Shown: positions 7,946-23,280 of the stretch, in pieces
How the letters are laid out: each line of letters starts with the position of its first letter
Position numbering within the stretch: the stretch's first letter is position 1
Source of the DNA: Sedimenticola hydrogenitrophicus
Lineage (GTDB): Bacteria; Pseudomonadota; Gammaproteobacteria; Chromatiales; Chromatiaceae
Direction of reading: 5' to 3'
Assembly (NCBI RefSeq): GCF_029017505.1
Contig: NZ_JAQGEI010000001.1
Span: 1 to 64,000 of the forward strand
DNA length: 64,000 bases
Made by a program: the position numbers and the translations under genes
Notes under the pieces: model-generated
The model's database searches: none
What the model was told of the DNA's origin: nothing
What the model saw: only the letters and a program-made list of their open reading frames with translations

Positions 7946-8854
7946 TTAGCCCTGTTCGTCCACAGCCCAGAGCCAGGCGGCGCCGCGCACCCCGCTGGCG
8001 TCGCCGTGCTGCGGTGGCAGCAGGCGGGTACGCACCACATCAGAGAAGATATAGTCCGTCCAGATCCGCGGTACCTGTTGATACAGTCGCGCGACGTTGG
8101 ATAAGCCGCCGCCGAGGATAATCGCTTCGGGATCCAGGAGGTTGATGACCGCGGCGAGACTGCGTGCCAGCCGATCCTCGTAACGCGCCATGACCCGTTG
8201 CGCCGCTTGCTCCTGTTGTGCCAGTCGTTCGGACAACGCCGCGCCACTGATCGATACTCCCGTCTCCCGGTGGTAATCGGCGGCCAGGCCGGCCCCCGAC
8301 AGGAAGGTCTCGATACAGCCCCTTTTTCCGCAATAGCATGCCGCCCCGGGCAGCTCCGCCGCGCCAGGCCAGGGGAGTGGGTTGTGTCCCCATTCACCGG
8401 CGATGCGGTTGGCGCCGGGGATCAGGCTGCCATTGATAACGATCCCGCCCCCGACACCGGTGCCGATGATGACACCGAAAACCGAAGCATAGCCCTGACC
8501 GGCGCCGTCGATGGACTCCGAGAGGGCAAAGCAGTCGGCATCATTGGCCAGGCGCACGGGACGCTCCAGCAGCCGTTCGAGATCCTGTTGCAGGGGGTTG
8601 CTATTCAGGCAGGTGGAGTTGGCGTTTCTGATCAGTCCGCTGGCGGGAGAGAGCGATCCGGGCGAGCCGACGCCGACCGTTCCGCGCCGGCCGGTCTCCT
8701 GTTCGATGCGCTTTATCAGCCCCGCCACCGCAAGGAGGGTGGCCTGGTAGTCACCCGCGGGTGTCGGGATACGCCGCCGGGTCAGGTGCTGGCCCCGCTC
8801 ATCCAGGGCTAGCGCCTCTATCTTGGTACCCCCGAGATCAACCCCGATACGCAT
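7946..8854 (-). CDS. mak: ROK-family fructokinase
   Basis: An ATP-dependent sugar kinase of 302 residues, the length of E. coli Mak, and very similar to it throughout as I remember that sequence. It has the N-terminal phosphate-binding DLGGTKIE motif, the catalytic LANDADCFALSE region, the GTGVGGG loop and the ROK zinc motif GHNPLPWPG followed by CYCGKRGCIETF. Expected reaction: fructose to fructose 6-phosphate in the cytoplasm, with possible activity on other hexoses. It lies 22 bp downstream of the dynamin-like GTPase gene on the same strand, so co-transcription is likely. Confidence 0.88.
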   Translation of the reverse strand: MRIGVDLGGTKIEALALDERGQHLTRRRIPTPAGDYQATLLAVAGLIKRIEQETGRRGTVGVGSPGSLSPASGLIRNANSTCLNSNPLQQDLERLLERPVRLANDADCFALSESIDGAGQGYASVFGVIIGTGVGGGIVINGSLIPGANRIAGEWGHNPLPWPGAAELPGAACYCGKRGCIETFLSGAGLAADYHRETGVSISGAALSERLAQQEQAAQRVMARYEDRLARSLAAVINLLDPEAIILGGGLSNVARLYQQVPRIWTDYIFSDVVRTRLLPPQHGDASGVRGAAWLWAVDEQG

Positions 8855-8876
8855 GGCAGGGACCGTTGCGGGAAAA

Positions 8877-10412
8877 TCAGGAGGGACCGCTGGAAGCCGG
8901 ACTCAATGCCGCCTCCGCATCCGGCTCGATCTGCGCGGCGGCGAGCAGGGGTTGGTTCTCCAGGTGTACCGAGGCGTCCCCCGACGGATTGGTGAAGCGG
9001 TCATTGAGGGTCTGCACGTAGTTGTCGGCATCCTCCTTGACCTGGGCCAGGCGTTTCCTGGCGCCACGTCCCCAGCCGGCCGGGACGCTGCTGAAGATGC
9101 TGCGCCAGGGCTTGGTGTTACGCAGGAAGGCGTTGCTCAGGTTACCGCGGACCGCCAGCTTGTCCGTCTGCCGTTTCAGCTGCCCCAACAGACTGCGGGC
9201 CGCCAGCGAGCGGATCAGGAAATGCAGCCCCAGCACCACGGCCAGGCTGGCGATCGTCGCGCCGATCTGCAGGGGCGGACTGGCCAGGAGGGCGTCCAGC
9301 CAGGGCGGGGCAAAACTGAATCCCTGCCAATAACCCTGGTTCAGGGTGATGGCGACCAGGGCGATCAACAGCAGCCCGAAGGCCAGCGCATCGCCCCAGA
9401 GCACGCGTCTTTTCCAGCGCGCCATCGCCTCCCGCACGGCGGGGATGGCCCGTTCCTCGATGTCCCGCGCGGTTCGTTCCAGTACCCCGACAATACGGTA
9501 GGCGCGTTCGATCTCCACCTCGTGCATGCGGTTGTGGATCTCTTCCAGATCCGCATCCCGTTTGCGTTCGAAGCGCTGGCGGAGATTGTCGTCATCGATC
9601 GGTACCGCGGCGTCCGGGTTATAGATGGTGTAGAAGCGGCCGGCGGTCAGGCCCCTTTCTCCCAGGGCTCGCTGCCAGGCGGCCACCACCTCTTCCGGAT
9701 TGTCCTCCCGCGCGGCGGAATCGATCTGGTTGAGGATATAGAGGAACTTGCCCGCATCATTGCGGCTGATGGTATTGCTCACCAGATGGCTCAGGGTATC
9801 CTGCATGGCGCCCGGTTCCGGATGGCGGGCGTCGAAGAACACCAGGACCAGGTCGGAGAGGTCGATGATGTGATCGGTAATGCGCAGGGTGGAGGTGCGC
9901 TGGGCATCGGCGTCGAATCCCGGGGAGTCGATCAGGATCTTGCCGCGCAGCCGTTCGCTGGGGCAGGTCTTCAACTGCAGGTAGGAGTCGATGCGCTCCC
10001 CCTCGCCCTTGGCAACCCGCTCGATATCCCCGCTCATCTGGTAGAAGGGGAAGCGTGGATCCGCGTCCAGTGCCACCCCCGGCAGGGCGTGTGCCGTTTT
10101 CTCCCGGCTGTAGCAGGTGACGGTGAACTTGTCGTCCACGGCCTGATTTCCGGTGCGCTGGAGTTTGTAGTCGAGGTAGTGATTGATAAAGGTGGATTTG
10201 CCGGATGAGAAGGTGCCGAGCACGGCGATCAGCGGCCACCAGGGTATCTGGGTGGCATAGGATTCATCCGTCCCGAGCAGGCCGGTGCGGTAGGCGATGC
10301 GGTCCAGCTTCTTGAAACTCTGTACTGTCCTGAGCAGTACCGGGTTCTCTTGTTCAAGGTGGGTTTCAAGATGTTTCAGGCGTCCTTCGATGAGTCTTCC
10401 TGCCGTGTTCAT
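8877..10412 (-). CDS. dynamin/EHD-like membrane GTPase
   Basis: A 511-residue GTPase. The P-loop GTFSSGKST sits near residue 66-74, the G3 motif DSPGF near 165 and a G4-like NQID near 230, followed by a helical region. Two hydrophobic segments near 340-360 and 385-405 (LAFGLLLIALVAITL; ASLAVVLGLHFLI) anchor it in the inner membrane. The C-terminus is helical. Bacterial dynamin-like proteins remodel or protect membranes, but the role of this one cannot be told from sequence. It precedes mak in a probable operon. Confidence 0.8.
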   Translation of the reverse strand: MNTAGRLIEGRLKHLETHLEQENPVLLRTVQSFKKLDRIAYRTGLLGTDESYATQIPWWPLIAVLGTFSSGKSTFINHYLDYKLQRTGNQAVDDKFTVTCYSREKTAHALPGVALDADPRFPFYQMSGDIERVAKGEGERIDSYLQLKTCPSERLRGKILIDSPGFDADAQRTSTLRITDHIIDLSDLVLVFFDARHPEPGAMQDTLSHLVSNTISRNDAGKFLYILNQIDSAAREDNPEEVVAAWQRALGERGLTAGRFYTIYNPDAAVPIDDDNLRQRFERKRDADLEEIHNRMHEVEIERAYRIVGVLERTARDIEERAIPAVREAMARWKRRVLWGDALAFGLLLIALVAITLNQGYWQGFSFAPPWLDALLASPPLQIGATIASLAVVLGLHFLIRSLAARSLLGQLKRQTDKLAVRGNLSNAFLRNTKPWRSIFSSVPAGWGRGARKRLAQVKEDADNYVQTLNDRFTNPSGDASVHLENQPLLAAAQIEPDAEAALSPASSGPS

Positions 10413-10471
10413 GAACTGCTCCTGATGTCGGGTATGGCTGTAGGGATGGGGTATTGCCCCGACTGCTGTTT

Positions 10472-10632
10472 AGGGCTCGTGCAAAAATAAGTTCCGGTAT
10501 TCGGTCGCCACTGGACCCCGTCGGCGGCGTTACGCTTTTTGGCAAGGGAACAGCCATTGCCTGCAAAGCGTGCCTTGCCGACATGGCCCAGTGACACCCT
10601 CGGTACTGCGGAATTATTCTTGCGCGAGCCCT
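10472..10632. repeat. 161-bp hairpin element, copy-specific arms
   Basis: Arms AGGGCTCGTGCAAAAATAA and TTATTCTTGCGCGAGCCCT enclose a core reading GGCAAGGGAACAGCCATTGC...CGTGCCTTGCC. Related cores lie at 42656-42949 and 26930-27176, but there the outer arms are different sequences that pair with each other. It lies between the divergent dynamin-like and SCP2-like genes. Confidence 0.65.
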
Positions 10633-10848: not shown

Positions 10849-10862
10849 TTGATCAATATCAG
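10849..10862 (+). promoter_or_regulatory. near-consensus FNR/DNR box upstream of the 10.9-21 kb cluster
   Basis: TTGATCAATATCAG matches TTGAT-N4-ATCAA at 9 of 10 positions. About 30 bp downstream, TAAACT at 10881-10886 could be the -10 element of a class-II FNR-type promoter, giving a transcript start near 10897. This would place the SCP2-like gene and perhaps the RND cluster under oxygen or NO control. Confidence 0.55.
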
Positions 10863-10888
10863 TATATAAGAGATACTTAATAAACTCA

Positions 10889-10929
10889 TGTTGCCTGTTG
10901 CAGCCGCCGATGGCGGTCATCAGGCGACA
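10889..10929 (+). promoter_or_regulatory. 5'-leader hairpin of the SCP2-like gene
   Basis: An outer stem TGTTGCCTG / CAGGCGACA (one mispair) and an inner stem CCGCC-GAT-GGCGG stack just upstream of the ribosome site. It would be near the 5' end of a transcript started from the FNR-type promoter and could protect the mRNA or modulate translation. Confidence 0.4.
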
Positions 10930-10962
10930 GGGACTTGATCTTAATAAGTGAGGGAGCGTGAC

Positions 10963-11358
10963 ATGGCTGAACTTTTTTCTGAAGAGTGGATGCAGAGTTT
11001 TATGACCCAGTGGAACGCGGAGTCCGAACTGGTCTCCGCCCTTGAGCAGATCGGTTTTGGCAGCGTGATCGGCTACGGGTTTGAGGGCGAAGCGCAGCCG
11101 CGCGGGGTGATCAGCGTGGAAAACGGCCGGGCGGTATCCGCCGGAGCCTACACGGGGGAGCCATTGAACTGGGATATCCGTTGTAGTGAGGCGCAGTGGA
11201 AAAAGTGGATCAGTAAGCCGCCCGGCATAATGGGACTCGGGGTGGCATTTACCTCGGGCAAGATGAAATTCAAGGTGGGTGACTACGCTTCCATGCTGAA
11301 GGATCCGCGTATGGCCGCGCCGTTCATCAAGAGTTTTTCCGTCATGGGCAAGGCCTGA
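10963..11358 (+). CDS. SCP2-like (sterol carrier fold) protein
   Basis: A 131-residue cytoplasmic protein with an SCP2-like fold: an N-terminal helix (LFSEEWMQSFMTQWN), a beta-sheet core (VIGYGFEGEAQPRGVISVENGRAVSAG) and a C-terminal lipid-pocket region (MKFKVGDYASMLKDPRMAAPFIKSF). SCP2-like proteins bind hydrophobic ligands. The start follows a good ribosome site, GAGGGAGCGTGAC; an in-frame GTG at 10948 is less likely. It is the first gene after the FNR-type box and precedes an RND adaptor, which may hint that the ligand is lipid-like. The ligand is unknown. Confidence 0.65.
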   Translation: MAELFSEEWMQSFMTQWNAESELVSALEQIGFGSVIGYGFEGEAQPRGVISVENGRAVSAGAYTGEPLNWDIRCSEAQWKKWISKPPGIMGLGVAFTSGKMKFKVGDYASMLKDPRMAAPFIKSFSVMGKA

Positions 11359-11441
11359 GCACCGGCGAGACCGGTTTTACGGCGACGGGCATCAGCTGAT
11401 AGGCAGAAGGCGGGATAACACGCCTGAAAAACTAAAAGTGC

Positions 11442-11475
11442 CCTGGGGGCTGCCGGTCACGGCAACTTTCCCAGG
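11442..11475 (+). promoter_or_regulatory. hairpin in the adaptor-gene leader
   Basis: CCTGGG/CCCAGG outer stem with an inner GCCG/CGGC stem, about 45 bp upstream of the adaptor start. There is no T-tract, so it is more likely a leader structure or processing site than a terminator. A weaker ACCGG/CCGGT stem with TTTT directly follows the SCP2-like stop. Confidence 0.35.
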
Positions 11476-11520
11476 ATGATATATCAACAGCAGTTCTTAA
11501 TCGGCGGGATAACTAAAAAG

Positions 11521-12675
11521 ATGGAAATACAGGTCCATGCGGTCACGCTGGCGATAGCACTGAGTGTCGCCGCGGTTCTGCCCCAACAGGGTTTGGCACA
11601 GAGCGAGAATGGCGATTATTTCGTCGTCCAGCAGGCGCGCGGCACCTCAACCGTCTCGCTCGGCGGAACGGTGATGCCATACAAGGAGGTGACGCTGTCG
11701 GCCCAACTGCCCGGGCGGGTAAGGCACCTGGCCGGTATCGAGGGGGATACCTTTGAAAAGGGCACGCTGCTGGTGGCCCTGGACGACAGTGAGTTGCTGG
11801 CCACGCGCAATGCCGCCCTGGCCCAGCTGGCCAATGCCGATGCGCAACTGCGCGCCGCCGGGGTGCAGTATAACCGTGAACTCTGGTCGCCCCAGTCCCA
11901 GCAGGCGATGGGTGGCATGGGCTTGCCGAACCTGTTCGACCAGATGTTCACCCGGCCGATGGAGGGCTTCTCCGGCAACCGTAACCAGACTGTGGAACGG
12001 CGCGCCGACCTGTACAGCTCCGGGGTGCAGATCACCCAGGCACAGAATGCCATCCTCTCCGCCCAGTCCCAGATCCAGGCGATCGACGCCAAGCTGCGCG
12101 ATGCCATCAGTCTCGCGCCGTTCGACGGGGTGATCCTGAAGAAGTTCGTCGAGGTGGGGGATACCATGCAGCCGGGTCAGCCGCTGCTGGTGTATGCCGA
12201 TGTGGAGTATCTGCAGATCATGGTGGACGTGCCGGCCAGGCTGCGCCCCGGCCTCTATGAGCAGATGATGCTGCGGGCGGAACTGGATGTTACCGGGCAG
12301 GTGGTGCCGGTGCGGGTGGCACAGATCTTCCCGACCGCCGATTCACAGCGTCACACCGTCAAGGTGAAGTTCGACCTGCCCCAGGGGGTGTCCGCGCCCG
12401 GCATGTATGTCAAGGTCAGGGTGCCGGACCACACCGCCCCGGCGCGCAATCATCCGGTCATTCCCGCCTCCTCCATCCGCTACAACGGGAGTCTGCCGGG
12501 GGTCTATGTGGAAGGCCAAAACGGCCGCCCGGAACTGCGCCTGATTCGGGCCGGCGAAAGCCTGGACAACGGTTTTGTCAGTGTGCTCTCCGGTTTGACC
12601 GCCGGTGAGCGGATACTGCGCGATCCGGCAAGCGGTCTTGCCTCGGGCTGGACCCGTCCGGTGGATCAGCGCTGA
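11521..12675 (+). CDS. RND periplasmic adaptor (HlyD/AcrA-like)
   Basis: A 384-residue membrane-fusion protein with a signal peptide (about 1-27, ending GLAQ-SEN). It has a biotinyl/lipoyl-like half-motif (SAQLPGRVRHLAGIEGDTFEKGTLLVALDD), an alpha-hairpin with a Gly/Met/Pro-rich insertion (about 115-150), the returning half-motif (APFDGVILKKFVEVGDTMQPGQPLLVYAD) and beta-barrel and membrane-proximal domains. It bridges the RND pump encoded next to an outer-membrane channel, which is not encoded here. I chose the ATG at 11521 because the hydrophobic signal sequence follows it; ATG 11476 is an in-frame alternative. Substrate unknown. Confidence 0.85.
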   Translation: MEIQVHAVTLAIALSVAAVLPQQGLAQSENGDYFVVQQARGTSTVSLGGTVMPYKEVTLSAQLPGRVRHLAGIEGDTFEKGTLLVALDDSELLATRNAALAQLANADAQLRAAGVQYNRELWSPQSQQAMGGMGLPNLFDQMFTRPMEGFSGNRNQTVERRADLYSSGVQITQAQNAILSAQSQIQAIDAKLRDAISLAPFDGVILKKFVEVGDTMQPGQPLLVYADVEYLQIMVDVPARLRPGLYEQMMLRAELDVTGQVVPVRVAQIFPTADSQRHTVKVKFDLPQGVSAPGMYVKVRVPDHTAPARNHPVIPASSIRYNGSLPGVYVEGQNGRPELRLIRAGESLDNGFVSVLSGLTAGERILRDPASGLASGWTRPVDQR

Positions 12676-12745
12676 ACGGGCGTGAAACCTCCGGTACCCG
12701 TGGACGCCACCCAGGCCTGTCATAGCGCTGCAACCAAGTGTGAAA

Positions 12746-15700
12746 ATGATGAATCAGGAAGATGCCAATAAAGATGAGCGGAACAACGCGCAACTGACCG
12801 ACGAGCAATTGGGGCTTGCCGGGCGTACCGCGCGCTTCTTCATCAACTCGCCGCTCTCGCCGCTGTTTTTTATCTCCATGATGCTGATGGGACTGCTGGG
12901 TCTGATGATGACGCCGCGGCAGGAGGATCCGCAGATCTCGGTGCCGATGGTGGACATCTTCGTCCAGTACACCGGTGCCTCCGCCGACCAGGTCTCCAAT
13001 CTCGCCATCGAGCCGCTGGAGCGGATCATGAGCGAGATCGACGGCGTCAAGCACGTCTACTCCGCCTCGCAGCGCGGCATGGGCATGGTGACCATCGAAT
13101 TTGATGTGGGCGAGCAGATGGGCCCCTCGCTGGTCAAGGTGAACGACAAGCTCGACTCCAACATGGACAGGATCCCGCCCGGGGTGTCGCCACCCCTGGT
13201 CAAGGCCAAGGGCATAGACGACGTACCGGTGGTCAACATCACCCTCTGGTCCAAGGATCTGGACAACAACGGCCTGCCGGACGTGGATGACGGCCAGCTG
13301 CGCATGCTGGCGCATGATGTGCTGCAGAGCATCAAGGAGATCCCGGATACCGGCAACGGTTTCGTGGTGGGCGGGCGTGCCGAGCAGGTGACCATCGAGG
13401 TCTCGCCGGAGCGGCTCTCCGGCTACGGCATCAGCCTCGACCAGGTGGCCAACCGTATCCAGACCTCCAACAGTGAACAGCAGGCGGGCGGGGTCGAATC
13501 CGGCAATACCCGCTTCACCGTCATGACCGGTGCCTTCCTCAAGACCACCGACGATATCAGTCGCCTGGTGATCGGCACCCACAACGACGTGCCGGTCTAT
13601 GTGCATGACGTGGCGCGGGTGGTGCAGGGGCCGGAGGATGCCCGCCAACTGGTGGCCTACTACACGGGACCGGCCGGCGATCAGGCACAGCCGGCCAGCG
13701 GGATTCCCGCCGTGACCATCGCCGTGGCGAAGAAACCCGGGGTCAATGGCGTCACGGTGGCCAGTGCCATTATCGACCGGGTCGAACACCTGAAGGGGCT
13801 GCGCATCCCCTCCAATGTCGGCGTCAGCATCACCCGCAACTACGGCGAGACGGCCGAGGACAAGGTCAACGAGCTGATCTTCAAGCTGTTCGTCGCCACC
13901 GGTTTCGTGTTCCTGCTGGTGCTGTTTGCCTTCCGCGCCCTGCGCCCGGCCATCGTGGTGGTCCTGGTGATCCCGGTGGTGCTGTTGATGACCATCTTCT
14001 ACGCCTGGGTGACCGGCTACACCATCGACCGGGTCAGCCTGTTCGCCCTGATCTTCTCCATCGGCATCCTGGTGGATGACGCCATCGTGGTGGTGGAGAA
14101 CATCTACCGGCGCTGGCTGGAGAATGGCTCCACCGACGCCTATACCGCGGTGGACGCGGTGCGGGAAGTGGGCAATCCCACCATCCTGGCGACCTTCACC
14201 GTGATCGCGGCGCTGTTGCCGATGGGTTTCGTCACCGGCATGATGGGCCCCTATATGGAGCCGATCCCGGCGCTCGGTTCGGCCGCCATGCTGATCTCCC
14301 TGTTCGCCGCCTTTGTCTTCACTCCCTGGCTGGCCATCTCCCGCTGGCTGCGCCCCAGCCTGGCCTACCTTGAGGTGGCGGAAGAGCGCGAGAAGGTGGG
14401 TACGCAACGCCTGGCACGCTTTTACGAAAAGATCCTCACCCCGCTGATCCGCTCGCGCAACAAGCGCATCCTGTTCCGCGTGCTGTTGTGGGGGAGCTTC
14501 CTCTTCGCCTGTTCCATGTTCTACACCCAGTGGGTGACGGTGAAGATGCTGCCGCTGGACAACAAGCCCGAGTTCTCGGTGGTGCTGGACATGCCGGAGG
14601 GCACGGCCCTGCCGGTCACCGCAAACCTGGCGCACCGGATCGCCGAGCAGCTGCGCCAAATGCCGGAGGTGACGGCGCTGCAGGTGTATGTGGGTACCGC
14701 GCGTCCGTTCGATTTCAACGGCATGGTGCGGCACTACTATCTGCGCCAGGATCCGTGGCAGGCCGAGGTCCAGGTACAGCTACTGCACAAGAGCAAGCGG
14801 GAGCGCAGCAGTCATGAACTGGCGCTGGCGGCGCGCGAGGCGGTCAGGGAGATCACCCGTGAGTCAGGGGCCAGGTTTGCCGTCGTGGAGATGCCGCCCG
14901 GTCCGCCGGTGCTGCAGTCGGTGGTGGCCGAGGTGCATGGCCCTACCCCGGAGATCCGCCGCCAGCTGGCCGCCGATCTGACCGGTATATTCGAGCAGAC
15001 GGAGAGCCTGGTGGACGTGGACAACTACCTGCGAGGCAGCTATGAATACTGGCTGTTCCGCGTGGACACCGAGAAGGCGGTGCGGCGCGGTGTCTCGGTC
15101 GACACCATCAACCGCAACCTCTCCATGGCGCTGGGCGGGATGCGCCTGGGCGACGTCAAGCAGAAGGCGGGGCACGAGCCGATCAATATCCTGATCCAGG
15201 TACCCCTGGCCGAGCGCTCCCAGATCAACCGGCTGGGCGACCTGCCGATCCAGTCCACCAGCGGGGTCACCCTGCCGCTGCGCGAGCTGGGAGCCTTCGA
15301 GGTGATGCAGGAGGAGCCGATCATCTATCACAAGGACCTGCGCCCGGTGGAGTATGTGGTGGCCGACGTGGGCGGTGCACTGGCCGCGCCGGTGTACGGC
15401 ATGTTCCAGGTGCAGGATCTGCTGGCGGCCGATTACACGGCACCCGACGGGATCAAGGTGGACGCCTTCTGGTTCAAGCCGCCGGCCGACGACAACCGTT
15501 CCAGCATCGAGTGGACCGGCGAGTGGACGGTCACCTTCGAGACCTTCCGGGACATGGGGGCGGCGTTCATGGTGGCGCTGGTGCTGATCTATATCCTGGT
15601 GGTGTGGGAGTTCGGCAATTTCCGCATCCCGGCGCTGATCATGGCACCGATTCCCCTGACCCTGCTGGGCATCATCCCCACGCATGCCCTGATGGGGGCG

Positions 15701-16714
15701 GAGTTCACCGCCACCTCGATGATCGGCTGGATCGCCCTGGCCGGCATCATCGTGCGCAATTCGATCCTGCTGGTAGACTTCTCCATCCACGAGATCCAGC
15801 GCGGGGTATCGGTGGAGCAGGCGGTGATACGCGCCTGCACCACGCGGACCCGGCCGATCATGATTACCGCCCTGGCCCTGGTATGCGGCTCCAGCGTGAT
15901 CTTTACCGATCCGATCTTCCAGGGCATGGCCATCTCGCTGGCCTCGGGTGTCATGGTCTCCACCATCCTGACCCTGATCGTGATCCCGCTCGGCTGCATG
16001 AAGGCTAGCGACGCGCTTTGTGAAGTGGCGGCCGCCGGGTATGACGGCGGCAATACCCCGCTGCCTGAACTGGCGGATGGGCCCTCCTGCCCGGCCGCTC
16101 CGCCCACCGTCCGGGGTCCCTCGCTGCTGCTGGTGCTATGGGTCAAGATCGCCAGCCTGCTGCTGATGCTGTTCTACGCCGGACGTGGAATCTTCCTGCT
16201 GCTGGGAGAGCGGCTGCGGCGTGGTAAATCCGCTGCGACGCCGGCCGCCATGGAAGCCGCTGTGGCGCCGCAACCGGTGACCCAGGGCCAGCCGTCACCG
16301 GGAGGTGAAGCCGCCCAGGCGGACGCGCCGAAAGCGGGGCGGGATCCGGGGCCGGGGGTGGGGCAGGCGATACCTGGTGAAGATAGGGGTGAGGATAGGG
16401 GCATAGCTCGGCCGGCAGCGGTTAAGCGTGCCGTCAGGAAGGCCGCGGCAAGGAAAAAACCGACGCCAGAGAAAAAACCGCTGGCCGGGGAAAAGCCAGC
16501 GGCCGGAAAAAAGCCGGCCGCCAAGAAAAAAGCCGTCAAGAAGGCGGCCGCCAAGACCCAGCCCGCGCTGCCACGCAGCGCGCCCGGTTCGGGGCCCGTG
16601 GCGGAGCCGGCGTCCACTGAAGATGATTTGCACACCATGCCGACACCGCCTGGACGCAAGGGGGGGCGGCGCGGGATTCGCCTGAAGGTGGATAATGAAA
16701 GCGGCATTGAGTAA
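12746..16714 (+). CDS. RND-family transporter with extra TM and Lys/Ala-rich tail
   Basis: A 1322-residue inner-membrane proton antiporter of the AcrB/HAE type. Typical members have about 1030-1060 residues, so there are roughly 230 extra at the C-terminus. The proton-relay Asp pair is in TM4 (GILVDDAIVVVENIYRR, about 438-454). After the usual final helix (LTLIVIPLGCMK) comes a linker, then an extra hydrophobic segment (about 1124-1150), then a Lys/Ala/Pro-rich tail resembling histone H1 (about 1229-1275). The periplasmic porter domain also has a short insertion, DLDNNGLPDVDD (about 171-182), which looks like a calcium-binding loop. It follows its adaptor after 70 bp; the next gene overlaps its 3' end by 20 bases. 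GTG 12740 and ATG 12749 are alternative starts. Confidence 0.88.
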   Translation: MMNQEDANKDERNNAQLTDEQLGLAGRTARFFINSPLSPLFFISMMLMGLLGLMMTPRQEDPQISVPMVDIFVQYTGASADQVSNLAIEPLERIMSEIDGVKHVYSASQRGMGMVTIEFDVGEQMGPSLVKVNDKLDSNMDRIPPGVSPPLVKAKGIDDVPVVNITLWSKDLDNNGLPDVDDGQLRMLAHDVLQSIKEIPDTGNGFVVGGRAEQVTIEVSPERLSGYGISLDQVANRIQTSNSEQQAGGVESGNTRFTVMTGAFLKTTDDISRLVIGTHNDVPVYVHDVARVVQGPEDARQLVAYYTGPAGDQAQPASGIPAVTIAVAKKPGVNGVTVASAIIDRVEHLKGLRIPSNVGVSITRNYGETAEDKVNELIFKLFVATGFVFLLVLFAFRALRPAIVVVLVIPVVLLMTIFYAWVTGYTIDRVSLFALIFSIGILVDDAIVVVENIYRRWLENGSTDAYTAVDAVREVGNPTILATFTVIAALLPMGFVTGMMGPYMEPIPALGSAAMLISLFAAFVFTPWLAISRWLRPSLAYLEVAEEREKVGTQRLARFYEKILTPLIRSRNKRILFRVLLWGSFLFACSMFYTQWVTVKMLPLDNKPEFSVVLDMPEGTALPVTANLAHRIAEQLRQMPEVTALQVYVGTARPFDFNGMVRHYYLRQDPWQAEVQVQLLHKSKRERSSHELALAAREAVREITRESGARFAVVEMPPGPPVLQSVVAEVHGPTPEIRRQLAADLTGIFEQTESLVDVDNYLRGSYEYWLFRVDTEKAVRRGVSVDTINRNLSMALGGMRLGDVKQKAGHEPINILIQVPLAERSQINRLGDLPIQSTSGVTLPLRELGAFEVMQEEPIIYHKDLRPVEYVVADVGGALAAPVYGMFQVQDLLAADYTAPDGIKVDAFWFKPPADDNRSSIEWTGEWTVTFETFRDMGAAFMVALVLIYILVVWEFGNFRIPALIMAPIPLTLLGIIPTHALMGAEFTATSMIGWIALAGIIVRNSILLVDFSIHEIQRGVSVEQAVIRACTTRTRPIMITALALVCGSSVIFTDPIFQGMAISLASGVMVSTILTLIVIPLGCMKASDALCEVAAAGYDGGNTPLPELADGPSCPAAPPTVRGPSLLLVLWVKIASLLLMLFYAGRGIFLLLGERLRRGKSAATPAAMEAAVAPQPVTQGQPSPGGEAAQADAPKAGRDPGPGVGQAIPGEDRGEDRGIARPAAVKRAVRKAAARKKPTPEKKPLAGEKPAAGKKPAAKKKAVKKAAAKTQPALPRSAPGSGPVAEPASTEDDLHTMPTPPGRKGGRRGIRLKVDNESGIE

Positions 16715-17198
16715 CCCGGTGGCAGGCGGGGTGGCAGGCAGGATGGTGCTGAGGCGGCTGCTCGCCCTGGGCATGCTGTGCGCCCTGGTGGTGCCGCGGC
16801 TGTTGCTTGCCGAGGGGACCGGGCCGTTGTACGGAAAATTCCGTCCCCTGAACCAAGCGGGGGGCAAGCCCCCGGCCGCGCAGCGGGCGCGGCGCTATTC
16901 CGGCGAGGCGGGGTATCACCTGAGGGGGCCGCTGGCCGATCCCCCCGCCTATGCGCCGTCAGGCGGTCCTTACCCGCAGCGACCGGCGGTGCAGGGCGGT
17001 TTTTTCATGGCCTATCCTAATGGATCGCCGGGGCGGCGATTCGGGCCCGGTCCGCGCAGCGTCAATGCGCCGGCGCAGAGGCCGTCCTTCCTGCGTCCGC
17101 CGGACAAGGGCCGCTACCTTAGACCGGCAGGGCCGCTGTCGGCGCCGCCGGAATTGGGCTACCGCTTCCGGCCACCGGGGCGAGGCCGTCAGGAGTAG
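16695..17198 (+). CDS. exported Pro/Gly/Arg-rich protein
   Basis: A 167-residue protein with a signal-like hydrophobic stretch after two arginines (RRLLALGMLCALVVPRLLLAEG). The mature part is low-complexity, rich in Pro, Gly, Arg and Tyr, without cysteines. I recognise no domain. ATG 16695 has a strong ribosome site (AAGGTGG) and overlaps the RND stop, implying coupling to the pump gene; ATG 16743 is an alternative that still keeps the signal sequence. Its composition resembles the larger exported protein at 18131-19057, so the two may be related or work together. Function unknown. Confidence 0.65.
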   Translation: MKAALSNPVAGGVAGRMVLRRLLALGMLCALVVPRLLLAEGTGPLYGKFRPLNQAGGKPPAAQRARRYSGEAGYHLRGPLADPPAYAPSGGPYPQRPAVQGGFFMAYPNGSPGRRFGPGPRSVNAPAQRPSFLRPPDKGRYLRPAGPLSAPPELGYRFRPPGRGRQE

Positions 17199-17244
17199 CC
17201 CGGTGTTCCCGCGCGGGAAAGCGAAATAAAACAGATAACAGGCC

Positions 17245-17267
17245 CGTCCGGCGACCGCACCCGGACG
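17245..17267 (+). promoter_or_regulatory. hairpin just upstream of a ribosome site
   Basis: CGTCCGG and CCGGACG form a 7-bp stem eight bases before the strong ribosome site GGAGGT (17275-17280) of the next gene. It could serve as an mRNA processing or stability element within the cluster. Confidence 0.35.
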
Positions 17268-17284
17268 CCATTTTGGAGGTATAG

Positions 17285-18076
17285 ATGTCTATCCGTGGTC
17301 AATGCATGTTACTTGGCCTCTCGCTGCTGGTAGCCGGGGTGGTGCCCGGTGTGGCGTCCGCTGCGGCGCTCGGTGTCGCTCGGGGCGAGGCGGCCTCCCC
17401 TGCCGCGGTGGAGTTTTCCGCCGATACTGTTCAGACTGATCCGCAAAAGCGGCAGCGGGTCGGCCGTATCTATGTCGGCACGAGTCGCATACGCAGTGAG
17501 ATGGAACAGAATGGCCAGCCGGTGGTTAATATCATCGATACCGGGCAGCGGATAACCTGGGTACTCTATCCACAGCAGCGAAGTTATATCGAATATCGGA
17601 TGGAGACCGGGGAGACGACAGCGCCGGAGAGCCCCTGTGCCGGTATCCCCGGCGCCCGTTGCAAACGGTTGGGTGATGAGCCTGTCGATGGCCGTCCCGC
17701 CAGCAAATGGCAGGTGATGCTGCCGTCGCCGCGCGGAGTGGTGGAGAGCACCCAGTGGATCGGCAAACAGCGCTCATTCCTGTTGCGGCAGGAGATCCAG
17801 GGAGGGGCGGTGATGGAACAGCGCCTGCTGGCGATGGAAGTGCTCCATGGACGTCCCGTCGAGAAGTGGGAGATGGTCCTGACCCAGGGGGAGCAGCCGG
17901 CCCAGCGCTCTACCCGCTGGTTTGATCCGCAACTCAATCTGGCGATCAAGGAGGCGAATCCGGGAGGCTATGTCCGTGAGCTGCAGAACATCATGGTCGG
18001 GCCGCAGGACCCGGGGCTGTTCAAGATACCGGAACAGTTCAAGCAAATCGTACCCCAGCCGGGTCAGGAACGCTGA
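17285..18076 (+). CDS. exported LolA/DUF4412-like protein
   Basis: A 263-residue protein with a clear signal peptide (cleavage likely after GVASA, about residue 26). The mature part begins with a LolA-like strand pattern (VEFSADTVQTDPQKRQRVGRIYVG) and resembles DUF4412-type periplasmic proteins. Two similar segments follow: one around DGRPASKWQVMLPSPRGVVE (about 137-183) and one around HGRPVEKWEMVLTQGEQPAQ (about 188-234), suggesting an internal duplication. It contains only two cysteines after the signal, in CAGIPGARC. It lies between two exported low-complexity proteins and may chaperone or sort one of them; that is inference. Confidence 0.6.
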   Translation: MSIRGQCMLLGLSLLVAGVVPGVASAAALGVARGEAASPAAVEFSADTVQTDPQKRQRVGRIYVGTSRIRSEMEQNGQPVVNIIDTGQRITWVLYPQQRSYIEYRMETGETTAPESPCAGIPGARCKRLGDEPVDGRPASKWQVMLPSPRGVVESTQWIGKQRSFLLRQEIQGGAVMEQRLLAMEVLHGRPVEKWEMVLTQGEQPAQRSTRWFDPQLNLAIKEANPGGYVRELQNIMVGPQDPGLFKIPEQFKQIVPQPGQER

Positions 18077-18130
18077 CGTACGGGCTGCCGGGAAACCCAC
18101 TGAGTGATCGGATGATCATGGAGTAATACG

Positions 18131-19057
18131 ATGAAGATCAGATTTGGATGGATAATGGCGACGGTCGGTTTGACCCTGGCCGGGATGGCGGGGGGAGTAT
18201 TTGCGACCCCGGCGGGTCTGCCCCAGCAGATGCTGCCCAGCTATGTGCCGGCAGCGCCCGGCCGGGGAGTTGCCAGTTTCCGGCCGCATTATCGCATGCA
18301 GCCGGTGCGCCAGTTGCCGTACTTCGTCCGGCCCGGCGTCAGACCGCCGGTGTACGCGCCGCTACCGCGTACCGCGGCCTGGCCGATACCAGTGAGTTAT
18401 CGACCCATCGCGCCGCTGCCGCCCCCCCGGATGCCCCGCTATGGCTACCCGGGACAAGGGCCGCGCTGGGCCGCTTATCCGCTGCCGGTCCCGGTCAGGG
18501 GGTATGGAGCGCGGCCAACGCCATGGACGGGGTATCCCTATCCGCCACGCCCGCCGGTCGTAGCCTGGGGCTATCCTCGCCCGGCGCCGTATCGCCAACG
18601 CCCGGCCTATCCACCGGTGACCCCTGCCTTCCAACCGCCGCCGTTCTGGATACCGCCGGCCGGGGCGGGTGCGCCGCCGCCCCAGTTCGGGTACCCCGGT
18701 CGGCCCTGGTTCAGGCAGCCGGTGCGGCCGGCGCCACGCGCGGTTGCGGGGCCACTGGCCGGGCGTTACCAGCCCTATGCGGGCTATCCGGGCGCGCGAC
18801 CGGATTATCGATTTCGCCCCCTACCCCAGGCGGTGGCATTTCAGGGCCAGCCTGTCGCAACAGCGTACCGACCCGGTCCGGCTTATCCGCGGGACTCCCG
18901 TTTCCGCCAGGATCCACGTTTTCATCCACTGGCCGGGCAGCGGATGACCACCGCTCCCTATCGGTATAGGCAGCGCCCGGCGCGTGGCGAGGCGGCCTAC
19001 GGACCCGGCCGCCGGGACGCCACCCGTGTGGCACTCGGGTGGCGGCAGGGATATTGA
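18131..19057 (+). CDS. exported Pro/Tyr/Arg/Gly-rich protein
   Basis: A 308-residue protein with a signal peptide (cleavage likely after GGVFA, about residue 26). The mature part is almost entirely Pro, Tyr, Arg, Gly and Ala in irregular RP, YP and PP motifs, is strongly basic, and has no cysteine. I see no known domain. The composition is that of an intrinsically disordered cell-surface or matrix protein. The ribosome site GGAG lies seven bases before the ATG. It sits 54 bp after the LolA-like gene and 52 bp before the MinD/ParA-like gene. Tyrosine density would allow cross-linking or metal binding, but this is speculation. The frame is supported by the signal peptide and ribosome site. Confidence 0.65.
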   Translation: MKIRFGWIMATVGLTLAGMAGGVFATPAGLPQQMLPSYVPAAPGRGVASFRPHYRMQPVRQLPYFVRPGVRPPVYAPLPRTAAWPIPVSYRPIAPLPPPRMPRYGYPGQGPRWAAYPLPVPVRGYGARPTPWTGYPYPPRPPVVAWGYPRPAPYRQRPAYPPVTPAFQPPPFWIPPAGAGAPPPQFGYPGRPWFRQPVRPAPRAVAGPLAGRYQPYAGYPGARPDYRFRPLPQAVAFQGQPVATAYRPGPAYPRDSRFRQDPRFHPLAGQRMTTAPYRYRQRPARGEAAYGPGRRDATRVALGWRQGY

Positions 19058-19109
19058 ATAACCGCTGTAGCGGTCGGCTGAATCTGAACAACAAACATAA
19101 GGGCCTGGC

Positions 19110-19742
19110 ATGATCACTGTCGTGGGTAGTCTGAAAGGTGGCTCGGGAAAGAGCACGGTAACCTTCAACCTGGCCGTCTGGCTGGCGATGGCGGAAGCCG
19201 AGGTACTGGTTATCGATCTGGATCCCCAGGCCACGCTGCGCGACGTGGTGGACGTTCGGGATGAAGAGGGGTATCACCCGCGGATCTCCGTGAAGGGGAA
19301 AAAACAGCTGGATGGGAACAGGCTGAATGGCGTGGACGAGGTGCTGATCGATATCGGTACCGCGGATATCGAGATGATGAAACGCGCTATCCAGCTGGCC
19401 GACCGCATCCTGGTACCGGTTCCGCCCTCCCAGGCGGATATCTGGTCGACCCAGCGGTTCATCCAGTTTGTAAATTCCACCACCGCGGGGAAGAGCCCGG
19501 AGATCATCGGTTTCATCAATCGGGGCGATACCCACCATGCCGTGCGGGAAACCGATGAGGCCGCGGCGGCCCTGGTGTCGCTGCCCGGGATGAAATTCAT
19601 CAAACCGCGACTGTCGCAGCGTACCATTTTTCGCCGCTCGTTCAGCGAGGGGCTGGCGGTGTTTGAGCTGAATCCGCGGGGTAAGGGAAGCCGGGAGCTG
19701 AACGCGCTCTGTGCAAAACTTTATCCCGGGATGCTGAAGTAA
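19110..19742 (+). CDS. MinD/ParA-like P-loop ATPase
   Basis: A 210-residue cytoplasmic ATPase with the deviant Walker A motif KGGSGKST at residues 9-16 (signature lysine at 9), a switch I-like VIDLDPQATL, and Walker B VLIDIG. It is shorter than chromosomal ParA (about 260) and similar in size to orphan McdA/ParA-like positioning ATPases. No ParB or MinE gene is adjacent. Likely partners are the neighbouring membrane coiled-coil protein or the DUF302 protein. A MITE lies directly after its stop codon, with the target duplication beginning on the last base of the stop. Confidence 0.8.
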   Translation: MITVVGSLKGGSGKSTVTFNLAVWLAMAEAEVLVIDLDPQATLRDVVDVRDEEGYHPRISVKGKKQLDGNRLNGVDEVLIDIGTADIEMMKRAIQLADRILVPVPPSQADIWSTQRFIQFVNSTTAGKSPEIIGFINRGDTHHAVRETDEAAAALVSLPGMKFIKPRLSQRTIFRRSFSEGLAVFELNPRGKGSRELNALCAKLYPGMLK

Positions 19743-19749
19743 ATAAGAC

Positions 19750-19857
19750 GTAACTACTCACCCGGTCTGTAAGTGATTGGCCTGTCTTGCCGGCCTCACG
19801 TGATGGCTGGATCAAGATCGGCCAACAAGGCAGGCCAATCACCCCGTGAGTAGTTAC
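19750..19857. mobile_element. 108-bp MITE, short form (inverted)
   Basis: It begins GTAACTACTCACCCGGTC and ends CGTGAGTAGTTAC, in the opposite orientation to the copy at 6398-6505. The exact 8-bp direct repeat AATAAGAC flanks it (19742-19749 and 19858-19865). Confidence 0.9.
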
Positions 19858-19946
19858 AATAAGACTAAATAAGCGGCCAGGGATTCGGCAGATGAACCAG
19901 CCGGCCCGGTACACAGGGCCATTATAGGCCGGGGAGAGGTGTAATC

Positions 19947-20525
19947 ATGCATGTCATCAGAAATCTGTTTGCCCTGATCGGCGTGGTGGCGGTGATCGCC
20001 GCCGCCGTGGCGGTGGTGAAAGCCCGGACCGTGCTGGATGGGTTCGATCCCGGCGCTGTGCAGGTCTACCGGGAACTGGCCGGGAAAATAGTCGAGACCC
20101 GCAATGCCGCCGAGGCAACCGTCTGGAAGGTACCGGTAGAGGAGGGGCTGACACCCGAGGATGTCGAACTGTCCATGAAGACGGTCGCCAATGAGCTCAA
20201 CATCTCCAATGTGGGGGAGCTCCCCCTGTCCAAGGATGTGGAGGCGAAAAGCGGCGCGCAGTACCGCTTCGTCAAGATCTACATGTTCTGCAACTCCCTC
20301 ACCGCCGCGCGGATGCTGGATTACAGCGACGCCTTCTCTGCCTATCTGCCGTGCCGGATTACCCTGGTTGAAGATAAACAGGGGCGACTCTGGCTGTATG
20401 CGCTGAATATGGATCTGATGATTCATGGGGGTGAGCCGCTGCCCGCCGCGCTGAAGGAGGAGGCACTGCAGGTGAAACAGGTGATTCTCGACATTATGCG
20501 GCGTGGCGCGGCTGGCGATTTTTGA
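19947..20525 (+). CDS. DUF302 domain protein, membrane-anchored
   Basis: A 192-residue protein with an N-terminal membrane anchor (LFALIGVVAVIAAAVAVV, about 7-24) and a DUF302-like domain in the second half (FVKIYMFCNSLTAARMLDYSDAFSAYLPCRITLVED, then LWLYALNMDLMIHGG). DUF302 proteins are frequent in sulfur oxidisers and have no agreed function. Two cysteines lie in the domain. The ribosome site GGGGAGAGGTG precedes the ATG. The following coiled-coil gene is 175 bp downstream, separated by a strong hairpin. Confidence 0.7.
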   Translation: MHVIRNLFALIGVVAVIAAAVAVVKARTVLDGFDPGAVQVYRELAGKIVETRNAAEATVWKVPVEEGLTPEDVELSMKTVANELNISNVGELPLSKDVEAKSGAQYRFVKIYMFCNSLTAARMLDYSDAFSAYLPCRITLVEDKQGRLWLYALNMDLMIHGGEPLPAALKEEALQVKQVILDIMRRGAAGDF

Positions 20526-20532
20526 GTGTATT

Positions 20533-20563
20533 ACCGGCTGGCGGCGAATCGCCGTCGGCCGGT
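20533..20563 (+). terminator. strong GC hairpin after the DUF302 gene
   Basis: ACCGGC/GGCCGGT and GCGGCGA/TCGCCG stack around a very short loop, eight bases after the stop. There is no T-tract (TTCCCCC follows), so it may be a Rho-assisted terminator or mRNA 3'-end stabiliser. Confidence 0.4.
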
Positions 20564-20700
20564 TCCCCCGGCTCCGGTACACCAGCCCTAAGGAAAAAAC
20601 AGGGGCCAGGAGAATCCGTATGTGATAGTATTCATTAGTTTATTAAAATATAAGCAAATGATAATTTATCTTGTCCGGGCTCAGCCTGAGGGGGGCGCAG

Positions 20701-21186
20701 ATGGTCGAAGAAAAAGAACGGCAGGATCAGGGGCGGGTTCCGGAACAGGGCCCGGCGTATTCGATGGAGCGTCTCTCGGAAGCGTTCGAGAACAGTGCCC
20801 GACGCTGGGAGCTGATTGTCTATCCCTCCCTGTTCGCCTTTATCATCCTTGCGGCCTACGGTTTTTTCCTGGTCTACAACCTGGCCAAGGACGTGCATTA
20901 TCTGGCGGTCAGCGTGGATACCAATATGACGCGGTTGGCCAGCAATATGCAGTCCGTGTCGGACAATATGGGACGGATGACAGTGGATATCCGCACCATG
21001 TCCGCCCATATGTCCGATATCAACGACAAGATCAGCACCCTTGAGCCGATGCTCGAGACCATCGGATCGATGGATCGCTCGATCCAGCAGATGACCCAGT
21101 CCACCTATATGATGCAGCGGGATTTTGCCCGCTTTAATCACAATATTGCCCGCCCCATGAACTTCATGAACAACATGATGCCGTGA
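20701..21186 (+). CDS. membrane-anchored coiled-coil protein
   Basis: A 161-residue protein with a basic/acidic cytoplasmic start, one membrane segment (YPSLFAFIILAAYGFFLVYNLA, about 42-63) and a long heptad-like coiled coil (about 65-145) of repeated MTRLASNM, MQSVSDNM, MGRMTVDI and MSAHMSDI blocks. It is unusually rich in methionine, with MNNMM at the end. It resembles methyl-accepting-type helical bundles or MCE-associated coils but no domain is certain. The start at 20701 follows GAGGGGGGCGC. It ends 6 bp before the convergent FimX-like stop. It may be a partner of the MinD/ParA-like ATPase encoded two genes upstream. Confidence 0.65.
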   Translation: MVEEKERQDQGRVPEQGPAYSMERLSEAFENSARRWELIVYPSLFAFIILAAYGFFLVYNLAKDVHYLAVSVDTNMTRLASNMQSVSDNMGRMTVDIRTMSAHMSDINDKISTLEPMLETIGSMDRSIQQMTQSTYMMQRDFARFNHNIARPMNFMNNMMP

Positions 21187-21192
21187 CGGCGG

Positions 21193-23280
21193 CTAGGCGG
21201 AGCTGAACTCGTAGGAGATGCTTTCCGAGGGCTCCTGGAGGAAATAGCCCTGAATGTAATTGACCCCGACGGTCCAGAGGATGGCCAGGCTGTTGGCATC
21301 CTCCACCCCCATGGCGATGGTCTTGATGTTGTGTTGCCTGGCCAGCGCGTTCAGTTCATTCAGCTGATCCTGTTGGTCCTGCCTGGAGGCCAGCTCCTGC
21401 ATCAGTTCAAAATCGAACTTCACAAAATCCACCTCCAGATGCTTTAACAGGGTTTCCGCCTTCGGGCTGGCGCCGAACTGATCGATGGCCAGCTGGCACT
21501 TGATCTTTTTCAGGCCCTCGATCAGTTTCTTCGCGGACTGGATATGATTGCGCAGATCCCGCTCATGTATCTGGAAGGTGATCCAGGGGCCCTTGGCCTT
21601 GTGCTTGCGCAGGCAGTCACAGATCCACAGCAGCATGCCGTCATCTTCCAGGCCGGCGCTGGAGATATTGATGAAGAAGTTGACCTTCTTGCCCTCCTTG
21701 CGCTGTTCCGCCAGTTCCTGGATCGCCCTGTTGATGACCCAACGATCCACTTTGGCCATCTGTTCCCCCTGCTTGGCATGGCGGATGAAGTAGTCGGGAA
21801 GGATCTCCTCATTATTGTTGTCCAGCAGCCGGGTCAGCACCGCGTAGTGTTCCCGGCTGTCCCCCTGCAGGCTGACGATCGGTTGATAGACCAGGCGGAA
21901 ACGGTCGTTTTCCAGGGCATGCTGGATCAGCTCATTGATGCGCGCCTCATCGCCGGTATTATCTTCCCCGTAACTGGCCTGCATCTCGCCGGCGTCGTAG
22001 AGGGAGTAGCGGTTGCCGCCGGAATTGCGCGCCGCCTCGTAGGCGTGATAGGCGCGGTTGATGAAATCCTGACTGCCGCTGATCTCCTGATCCAGCAGCG
22101 TGACGCCAATACAGCAGGTGACATTGGTCTGCTGATAGACATACGCCTCGACCAATTGCCGCAACCGCTCCGCCATGGTCTCCGCGTCGACCGGGTTCTG
22201 CTTGTCGCTCAAAATGGTGAAGGTGTGATCACCGAAGCGCGAGAGCAGCTCCTCCTGGTCGATGTGGGTGGCGAGAATCCGTGCCAGCTCCTTGAGCAGC
22301 TGGTCACTGGCGGTGATGCCGATTTCAGCGCGGATCTCGCGGAAGCCATCGATCACGATGTAGAACAGGGAACAGCTGCCCCCGGTTTCACGCCGCGCCG
22401 CGAGCGTCTGTTCCATCTTGGCCATGAAATACTGCCGGTTGGACAGGCCGGTCTGGGAATCCTGGTTGCTCAGTAGTTCAATGGTCTGTTCAAGCTCCTT
22501 GCTCTGCGCCTCATTGCGGATCACCAGTTGGGTGCAGGGTTCGCCGTCGTAGGTGGCGGGCGAGAACTCCAGCTTCGCATCAAAGGTCTCGCCGGCGCTG
22601 TTCTGGCAGGCGATGCTGAGTTCGCTGTGCTCGTCACCCAGGGTTCTGAGGAACGACTTGATCCGTTTATGGTCCTTGGGCGAGACCATGTCGAGGATAG
22701 GCAACCCCTCCAGCTCACCCATGTCGACGAAACCGAACATCTGCAGGTAGGCCGGGTTGGCCTGCATGTGCATCCCTTCGTGTATATAGGCGATGGCATC
22801 CTGGGAGCTGTCGATCAAGGTATTGCAGCGCGCTTCGGCCTCTTTCAGTTTCTGCCGCGTCAGGGCCAGTTCCTGGCGCACCCGCCGATCTTCCGACTCG
22901 CGCCGGATCACCAGTTGCAGATGATCCGGGTCGCCGCTGGAGACCACGTCCCGCGCCCCGTCACGCATCGCCTGGAGAAGGATTTCCGGATCGGTTTCCG
23001 GATCCTTGTAGAGCAGGATATAAGGTGCGTCCTGATAAGCGGCCCGGAACAGCCGGGTGGTGGATGCCAGCTTGTCGCTGGTCTCCGGCAGGGAGAGCAG
23101 GATCAGTTCGGGTTGCCCGCCGTCGACGAGATCGAGCAACGTCTCCTCATCCGCGGCAAATGTGGGATGGATTACCAGACCGGCATTGCGCAATGTACTG
23201 ATGTAGGTCTCGGCCTCATTGAGGGAGGGCTCGACGACCAGAAGGCTTATCGGTATGTCGGTCTCGGAGTATCCATTCAT
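21193..23280 (-). CDS. fimX: FimX-like REC-PAS-GGDEF-EAL protein, degenerate
   Basis: A 695-residue cytoplasmic protein, close to the length of Pseudomonas FimX. Domains: receiver-like (about 10-125), PAS (about 150-265), GGDEF (about 270-430) and EAL (about 445-690). The GGDEF signature reads RFGDHTF and the EAL signature reads YAVLTRL, so neither cyclase nor phosphodiesterase activity is expected. FimX binds c-di-GMP through its EAL domain and controls type IV pilus assembly at a cell pole. I chose ATG 23280 because the receiver-like sequence starts there; the frame is open to 23325. The upstream gene encodes a PilZ-type protein, as in Pseudomonas. Confidence 0.82.
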   Translation of the reverse strand: MNGYSETDIPISLLVVEPSLNEAETYISTLRNAGLVIHPTFAADEETLLDLVDGGQPELILLSLPETSDKLASTTRLFRAAYQDAPYILLYKDPETDPEILLQAMRDGARDVVSSGDPDHLQLVIRRESEDRRVRQELALTRQKLKEAEARCNTLIDSSQDAIAYIHEGMHMQANPAYLQMFGFVDMGELEGLPILDMVSPKDHKRIKSFLRTLGDEHSELSIACQNSAGETFDAKLEFSPATYDGEPCTQLVIRNEAQSKELEQTIELLSNQDSQTGLSNRQYFMAKMEQTLAARRETGGSCSLFYIVIDGFREIRAEIGITASDQLLKELARILATHIDQEELLSRFGDHTFTILSDKQNPVDAETMAERLRQLVEAYVYQQTNVTCCIGVTLLDQEISGSQDFINRAYHAYEAARNSGGNRYSLYDAGEMQASYGEDNTGDEARINELIQHALENDRFRLVYQPIVSLQGDSREHYAVLTRLLDNNNEEILPDYFIRHAKQGEQMAKVDRWVINRAIQELAEQRKEGKKVNFFINISSAGLEDDGMLLWICDCLRKHKAKGPWITFQIHERDLRNHIQSAKKLIEGLKKIKCQLAIDQFGASPKAETLLKHLEVDFVKFDFELMQELASRQDQQDQLNELNALARQHNIKTIAMGVEDANSLAILWTVGVNYIQGYFLQEPSESISYEFSSA

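Follow-up and report, generated by a model that had tools for sequence, protein, structure and literature searches.

A conserved gene cluster of sulfur oxidisers, probably dedicated to periplasmic sulfur globules, with an RND pump tail as the proposed ParA partner

Introduction

ATPases of the ParA/MinD type are known to position cell inclusions, and McdA does so for carboxysomes through its partner McdB. The N-terminus of known partners of such ATPases is disordered and carries positive charge (PMC10241942), and in McdB the initial 20 residues are enough to bind McdA (PMC12204374, a preprint); these and all other papers are cited from excerpts. Sulfur globules, which are extracytoplasmic in Allochromatium vinosum (PMC10386293), are known mainly by their coat proteins, and the excerpts of the literature found assign no machinery to their assembly, membrane or inheritance. 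Here we describe a gene block at positions 10849-21186 (+ strand) of a 64,000-nucleotide stretch of DNA from Sedimenticola hydrogenitrophicus (contig NZ_JAQGEI010000001.1), which is called the window below. The block encodes an RND pump with its adaptor, a ParA/MinD-type ATPase, putative lipid carriers, exported low-complexity proteins and membrane proteins. An earlier note, made from the letters of the window, had claimed nine co-directional genes here, and all nine were found.

Judged by gene order and sequence, the block is one version, the Sedimenticola form, of a conserved cluster of sulfur oxidisers. We consider it likely that this cluster is dedicated to the periplasmic sulfur globules of sulfur-oxidising Gammaproteobacteria, and that its ATPase, ParA, positions them via the tail of the pump. 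The comparative basis of this reading is fourfold: the conserved gene order, the tracking of sulfur globule protein (SGP, PF17228) genes by ParA, the presence of SGP genes inside the cluster in other lineages, and a tail motif that goes with ParA.

Results

A cluster shared by sulfur oxidisers

The ATPase (19110-19742, +) is by sequence of the ParA/MinD (A/D) type. It matches CbiA in Pfam (3.8e-14) and ParF in the PDB (3.1e-14), has a ParF-like size, and carries the deviant Walker A KGGSGKST, which fits the ParA/MinD pattern KGGxxK[TS]; K9, G10, G11, G13, K14, S15 and T16 are invariant in 25 aligned sequences. Named genomes were scanned with a ParA profile. The best 80 of the 460 loci include Sedimenticola, Allochromatium, Thiocapsa, Chromatium, Thiodiazotropha, Thiosymbion and tubeworm symbionts, as well as Parabeggiatoa, Thiomargarita, Thioploca, Thiothrix, Acidithiobacillus and Thiomicrorhabdus, and the closest named ParA among them is that of Sedimenticola hydrogenitrophicus, at 97%. 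With further genomes this gave a set of 150 loci, 134 of them with a distinct ParA; the set holds a few paralogues, such as L275 of genome G015, whose ParA is only 24% identical.

Gene neighbourhoods were compared in the 87 of these 134 loci that have 7.5 kb or more of upstream and 3.5 kb or more of downstream sequence, called full loci here. The RND pump is present in 74 of them, the adaptor in 72 and the coiled-coil protein in 68, all on the strand of parA. Less constant are the dynamin-like GTPase (59 loci, 25 of them on parA's strand), the LolA-like protein (41), a TPR protein (34), the SCP2 protein (31), the DUF302 protein (27) and SGP (20). The earlier note had proposed one linked gene set and had named scattered genes in relatives as what would refute it; the genes stay together in most loci, and 13 of the 87 have no pump nearby.

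The limits that the note gave to the set hold for its nine genes and left out a tenth, a linked dynamin-like (EHD-like) GTPase encoded on the minus strand (8877-10412; Dynamin_N 46 bits, cut-off 27, 7.9e-12; EHD4 in the PDB, 2.7e-7), in which a membrane hairpin was seen by eye. Loci of Sedimenticola and Chromatiaceae have its gene in divergent orientation, but in loci such as those of Thiothrix and Thiomicrorhabdus it stands 3' of the coiled-coil gene and shares its strand. We count it as part of the set because it is linked to the cluster in other lineages, in some of them on the same strand after the coiled-coil gene.

Several loci stood out on inspection. A Chromatium okenii contig (L096) has its dynamin-like gene split over several frames, perhaps by sequencing errors. 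A locus of a Lamellibrachia symbiont (L082) has two ParA matches 1.4 kb apart. The locus on a contig titled Phycisphaera mikurensis (L148) is arranged like that of an Acidithiobacillus contig (L149), perhaps through a binning error. The TPR protein, which has an N-terminal hydrophobic segment, is encoded 3' of parA in many lineages (L132, 10644-11285; L127, 10692-11678; L144; L151), and none was seen in the window's block.

ParA tracks sulfur globule protein genes

Co-occurrence was assessed in 370 genomes of the class, requested at 90% completeness or more, which were searched for ParA, dsrA, soxB and SGP. ParA was counted at E <1e-45, in 68 genomes (69 at 1e-30; G347, at 9.5e-31, was dropped). 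The dsrA count is 124 including a partial gene in G382, with 123 over the cut-off; soxB was counted at E <=1e-60 in 162 genomes, and SGP at E <=1e-3 in 56, with 55 over the cut-off. Among the 68 genomes with ParA, 57 have dsrA, 64 have soxB and 66 have either; the two others have relatives with dsrA or soxB, G427 in its family and G457 in its genus.

Both SGP and ParA occur in 52 of the 370 genomes, SGP only in 4 (G015, G219, G332, G465), ParA only in 16 and neither in 298. ParA is thus present in 52/56 genomes with SGP versus 16/314 without (P 4e-44). Within the 172 genomes that have dsrA or soxB, the numbers are 51 with both, 4 with SGP only, 15 with ParA only and 102 with neither, so that ParA is found in 51/55 versus 15/117 (P 3e-25); both P values overstate independence because the sampled genomes are related. 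By family label, in a hand count, 25 of the 26 families with SGP also hold genomes with ParA. In these genomes, then, ParA tracks SGP genes more tightly than it tracks sulfur oxidation. ParA as a plain sulfur-oxidation gene was considered and set aside, since it is missing from 106 of the 172 dsrA-or-soxB genomes.

The gene before parA

In the window, the slot directly before parA encodes exported P/Y/R-rich protein B (18131-19057, +), and a second exported P/Y/R/G-rich protein, A (16695-17198, +), is encoded upstream of it. Other lineages carry an SGP gene in this place. With a local SGP model, an SGP gene upstream of parA, on its strand and no more than 3.2 kb off, was found in 29 of the 110 distinct loci that have as much upstream sequence, and matches elsewhere in the loci were limited to two (L077 and L248). 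In seven genomes (G194, G235, G285, G346, G355, G382, G497) a Pfam SGP gene lies directly upstream of parA. SGP-like slot proteins of L122 and L144 were not recognised by NCBIfam or Pfam, and that of L151 has an SGP match below the cut-off (E 0.035).

A second type of slot protein, exported, P/Y/R-rich and marked by YRFR-type repeats, is found in 24 loci, mainly of the window's own family. Two or more [YFHL]RFR[PGD] motifs occur in 24 of 788 open reading frames in the slot and in 0 of 7455 outside it. Proteins A and B have one full copy each (YRFRP in A) and are left out of this count, which needs two. The SGP and YRFR types were never met together in a slot; L077 alone has the two, with the SGP gene at a distance of 10 kb.

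The presence of SGP in the slot of other lineages points to a periplasmic storage inclusion, and this tells against the surface layer proposed in the earlier note. It also bears on whether the cluster serves some other membrane structure, for example intracytoplasmic membranes, with the SGP co-occurrence reflecting a shared life style. Co-occurrence alone cannot show function, and the cluster is carried by Chromatiaceae, which are phototrophs with intracytoplasmic membranes. However, ParA is also carried by the non-phototrophs Parabeggiatoa, Thiothrix, Acidithiobacillus and Thiomicrorhabdus, SGP genes lie physically inside the cluster, and the association holds within the dsrA/soxB genomes. 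We regard this alternative as quite improbable.

Two candidate memberships were rejected. Proteins A and B were tried as direct SGP members and had no match in Pfam or NCBIfam. SgpD was tried as a member of the cluster; in A. vinosum its gene is 0.8 Mb from the cluster and next to an exporter of 24% identity, and the A. humboldtianum locus contains neither the terminator nor the promoter motifs published for it.

The pump tail goes with ParA

The pump (12740-16714, +; 1324 residues) matches ACR_tran with 477.5 bits (cut-off 28, E 1e-142), and its best sequence match in the PDB is 6vej, which we take to be TriC. Its C-terminus is extended by a long tail rich in Lys, Ala and Pro that ends in RRGIRLK (codons 16667-16687, +) and eight further residues. 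In the ParA loci, 89 of the 92 distinct pumps of at least 1000 residues have a match to RG[IL][RQK][LI][KRN] 0-21 residues from the end, and 61 of the 89 have exactly RRGIRLK. The same expression was met 16 times in open reading frames other than those called RND, all open reading frames together amounting to 2.79 million residues. As for the three pumps without the motif, that of L095 is masked with N, that of L257 has it in another frame after an apparent frameshift, and at L271 the one pump found lies on the opposite strand.

The four genomes with SGP and without ParA are informative here. Two of them, G219 and G332 from one family, have adaptor, pump, an exported PPGPYG-rich protein, SGP, LolA-like protein, TPR protein, coiled coil and dynamin in one run, with no ParA in that run or in the genome (1e-30), and their pumps end before the tail. 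In G015 the pump tail ends in RKSVRIK, and the recognised neighbours of the pump are limited to adaptor, coiled coil and SCP2. These pumps are 59% (G219), 58% (G332) and 64% (G015) identical to that of the window. The end of the G465 pump is unreadable, as its contig ends inside the pump. The motif is therefore absent or degenerate in three of three readable cases. In the sequences compared, the tail motif goes with ParA, and it is chiefly the joint loss of ParA and tail or motif that suggests the tail as a ParA contact. By analogy, ParA probably positions the pump and the sulfur globule via this tail, as McdA does carboxysomes via McdB.

An alternative is that the cluster makes and loads globules while ParA and the RRGIRLK tail do something else, such as tethering the pump to DNA or recruiting the dynamin-like GTPase. 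The link to SGP is independent of the tail argument, and the tail has a weak match, below the cut-off, to histone H1-like HC2 (E 0.0078, Pfam), so that direct nucleoid binding is possible. Yet G219 and G332 lose tail and motif together with ParA while keeping dynamin and coiled coil, and the motif is degenerate in G015, which also lacks ParA. On balance this alternative seems unlikely.

The SGP clusters of the two genomes of one family noted above (L288, 4700-15796; L289, 234-11298) hold every main part but ParA and have a tail-less pump. The window's own genome has a paralogous pump with adaptor (L292; contig C43 of G000, 6248-10565) that is 43% identical and has no such tail; in the whole-genome search the match to this paralogous pump contains one stop.

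Other proteins of the block

Most of the identities that the earlier note had predicted (RND pump, adaptor, ParA/MinD ATPase, DUF302, coiled coil) were borne out by Pfam and NCBIfam, with the match behind the coiled coil below its cut-off. Signal peptides, transmembrane and other membrane segments and the dynamin hairpin were judged by eye. The adaptor (11476-12675, +; ATG 11521 is a possible start) is of the HlyD/CusB type, with matches to HlyD_D23 (1.8e-13) and RND_mfp (1.8e-40). The DUF302 protein (19947-20525, +; 44.8 bits, cut-off 23, 1.1e-11) has an N-terminal hydrophobic segment. The coiled-coil protein (20671-21186, +) has one transmembrane segment and a weak DUF948 match; the consensus of 98 sequences reads sarRwelIVYPsLfAFIiLAaYGF, and its Met-rich coil is probably periplasmic.

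The SCP2-like protein, the LolA-like protein and the two exported proteins had nothing over the Pfam or NCBIfam cut-offs; protein A had no Pfam match up to E 0.01 and no NCBIfam match up to 1. PDB searches by sequence with profiles of the SCP2-like and LolA-like proteins gave nothing useful. Structure prediction was more telling. The first gene product, a lipid-carrier-type protein (10948-11358, +; ATG 10963 is a likelier start than GTG 10948), was modelled by AlphaFold2 with pLDDT 92.9, and its best PDB match in Foldseek is 2cx7 (E 1.7e-7, TM 0.78). As modelled, it has an SCP2 fold, though Pfam and NCBIfam are silent. The exported LolA-like protein (17285-18076, +; pLDDT 88.5) models as a LolA/RseB-superfamily-like beta fold and is a predicted carrier only: RseB, LolA and ependymin-related chains all scored alike (VIA Z about 7-11, maximum 11.1), and Foldseek TM values over the query were low, 0.16-0.37 in the first 38 rows. 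Its C118 and C126 are invariant in 38 sequences.

The earlier note had taken an overlap of the pump gene and the first exported-protein gene as a physical link. With ATG 16695 the overlap is 20 nt; with the alternative in-frame start ATG 16743, which directly precedes a normal-looking signal peptide of protein A, it disappears.

Upstream site and neighbouring genes

Before the first gene lies an FNR-like site, TTGATCAATATCAG (10849-10862), which matches 9 of the 10 consensus bases of TTGATNNNNATCAA, the FNR consensus. The near-consensus box seen in the earlier note is thus there; conservation upstream in relatives is not. The nearest relative, L052, has only 7/10, and among the upstream regions examined 9 or 10 consensus bases are reached by 4 of the 36 that are SCP-led and by none of the 51 that are HlyD-led, which leaves the oxygen-regulated reading unsupported. 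That reading was part of a larger guess, a machine at the cell pole, under oxygen control, that would export lipid-like cargo and build a surface layer. The SCP2 fold, the LolA-like fold and the RND pump do fit a hydrophobic cargo, but the FNR box is not conserved, the set tracks sulfur globule genes, no S-layer family is among the Pfam matches of the block's proteins, and the polar placement gives way to a model of ParA-type, nucleoid-based positioning. We hold the guess as a whole to be highly improbable.

Around the block, the window encodes NadA and an NrtR-type regulator upstream (3618-5361, -), and a NadA-like gene, identified by eye, adjoins the dynamin gene in Allochromatium too (L077, 467-1534). 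Downstream and convergent (21193-25208, -) are the genes of a GGDEF-EAL protein and of a large protein that matches nothing in Pfam at 1e-5. EAL-protein profile matches lie near parA in 30 of the 87 full loci, only 5 of them on its strand, and the large protein is near parA in 6. A second, AcrB-type RND pump (39460-42654, -; ACR_tran 1131.8 bits) is far from the cluster.

Discussion

In the proposed mechanism, the RND pump and adaptor would sit in the inner membrane at the growing globule and, with the LolA-like and SCP2-like carriers, would move hydrophobic cargo, perhaps lipid, polysulfide or material for the coat. Exported proteins of low complexity would help to coat the globule, and the dynamin-like GTPase and the coiled-coil membrane protein would shape or hold membrane round it in the periplasm. 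On the cytoplasmic side, the Lys-rich tail would engage nucleoid-bound ParA-ATP through its terminal RRGIRLK peptide and release it from the nucleoid, so that pump-bound globules move and spread. In this way pump-globule units would be distributed over the nucleoid and divided between the daughter cells, like carboxysomes by McdA through McdB. A bolder form of the same idea, to which we give about an even chance, is that globules are periplasmic organelles with remodelled membrane, built and segregated by a dedicated machine in which cytoplasmic ParA grips the pump's RRGIRLK across the inner membrane.

Besides the relatedness of the sampled genomes, several findings weigh against a globule cluster with ParA positioning. 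ParA is missing from 67 genomes with dsrA, as well as from the 106 with dsrA or soxB, and 16 genomes with ParA have no SGP by Pfam; in at least three of these 16 (G283, G409, G507) the local SGP model found SGP-like genes beside parA. Proteins A and B have no Pfam SGP match at E up to 0.01. The window's genome (5.13 Mb) has two dsrA genes and soxB; the SGP genes found in it lie on contigs C6, C22 and C41, and the genome SGP search found none on the window's contig, C1. The SGP genes found in A. vinosum lie outside the cluster, its sgpD adjoins a different exporter, 24% identical to the window pump, and its four globule proteins are SgpA-D, with the cluster's exported protein not among them in the excerpts of PMC10386293. 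Thiomargarita and Parabeggiatoa are among the loci with no pump nearby. On the ParA-less side only three cases are readable and two of these share a family, and the known partner peptides are N-terminal, whereas that of the pump is C-terminal. Finally, according to excerpts of PMC6509183, Ca. Thioglobus autotrophicus has sulfur globules in its periplasm as well as four putative sgp genes, and SUP05 genomes lack dynamin, so not every globule needs the cluster.

If the proposal is true, it adds a new cargo and a new type of partner to ParA/MinD positioning; the pump would be the first transporter to serve as such a partner, and we know of no earlier case. The cluster would also mark, at the genome level, many bacteria that can store sulfur. 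Its conserved parts (pump, carriers, dynamin-like GTPase and ParA) make the assembly and inheritance of globules a testable question in Allochromatium vinosum, for which sgp mutants and mCherry fusions exist (PMC10386293).

Comparison with known systems

The earlier note knew of no described system with this composition, and no description of such a cluster was found among the open-licence PMC papers that the searches listed. The excerpts of PMC11267869, PMC6509183, PMC11172852 and PMC3397948 describe no such system, those on the A/D ATPases of Halothiobacillus name no such cargo, and no open-licence paper was found on the A. vinosum cluster, whose locus tags are estimated as Alvin_177x-179x. 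The literature found describes neither sulfur globules as a ParA cargo nor the tail of a pump as a ParA partner.

The pump is like tripartite RND pumps (6vej, MexK) in pairing an ACR_tran pump with an HlyD-type adaptor, and unlike them in its long Lys-rich tail with terminal RRGIRLK and in its ParA, dynamin and coiled-coil neighbours; no outer-membrane channel is among the block's Pfam matches. The window GTPase shares the Dynamin_N domain of EHD/dynamin GTPases and is similar to EHD4, but it is bacterial, has a membrane hairpin by eye and is encoded with sulfur-globule genes. SgpA-D of A. vinosum are, like proteins A and B, exported and of low complexity, and PF17228 members occupy the same slot in other lineages; unlike them, proteins A and B have no PF17228 match, and in A. 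vinosum sgpD and two PF17228 genes, taken for sgpA and sgpB, stand outside the cluster.

McdA/McdB of Halothiobacillus neapolitanus is like the present system in that a ParA/MinD ATPase is encoded with the genes of a cell inclusion and in that the partner is contacted by a short basic, flexible peptide (PMC10241942, PMC12204374), as is proposed here. No carboxysome family is among the Pfam matches of the block's proteins, so the block lacks the gene context of McdAB. Unlike in McdA/McdB, the proposed partner peptide here is the C-terminus of an inner-membrane RND pump, and the cargo would be periplasmic.

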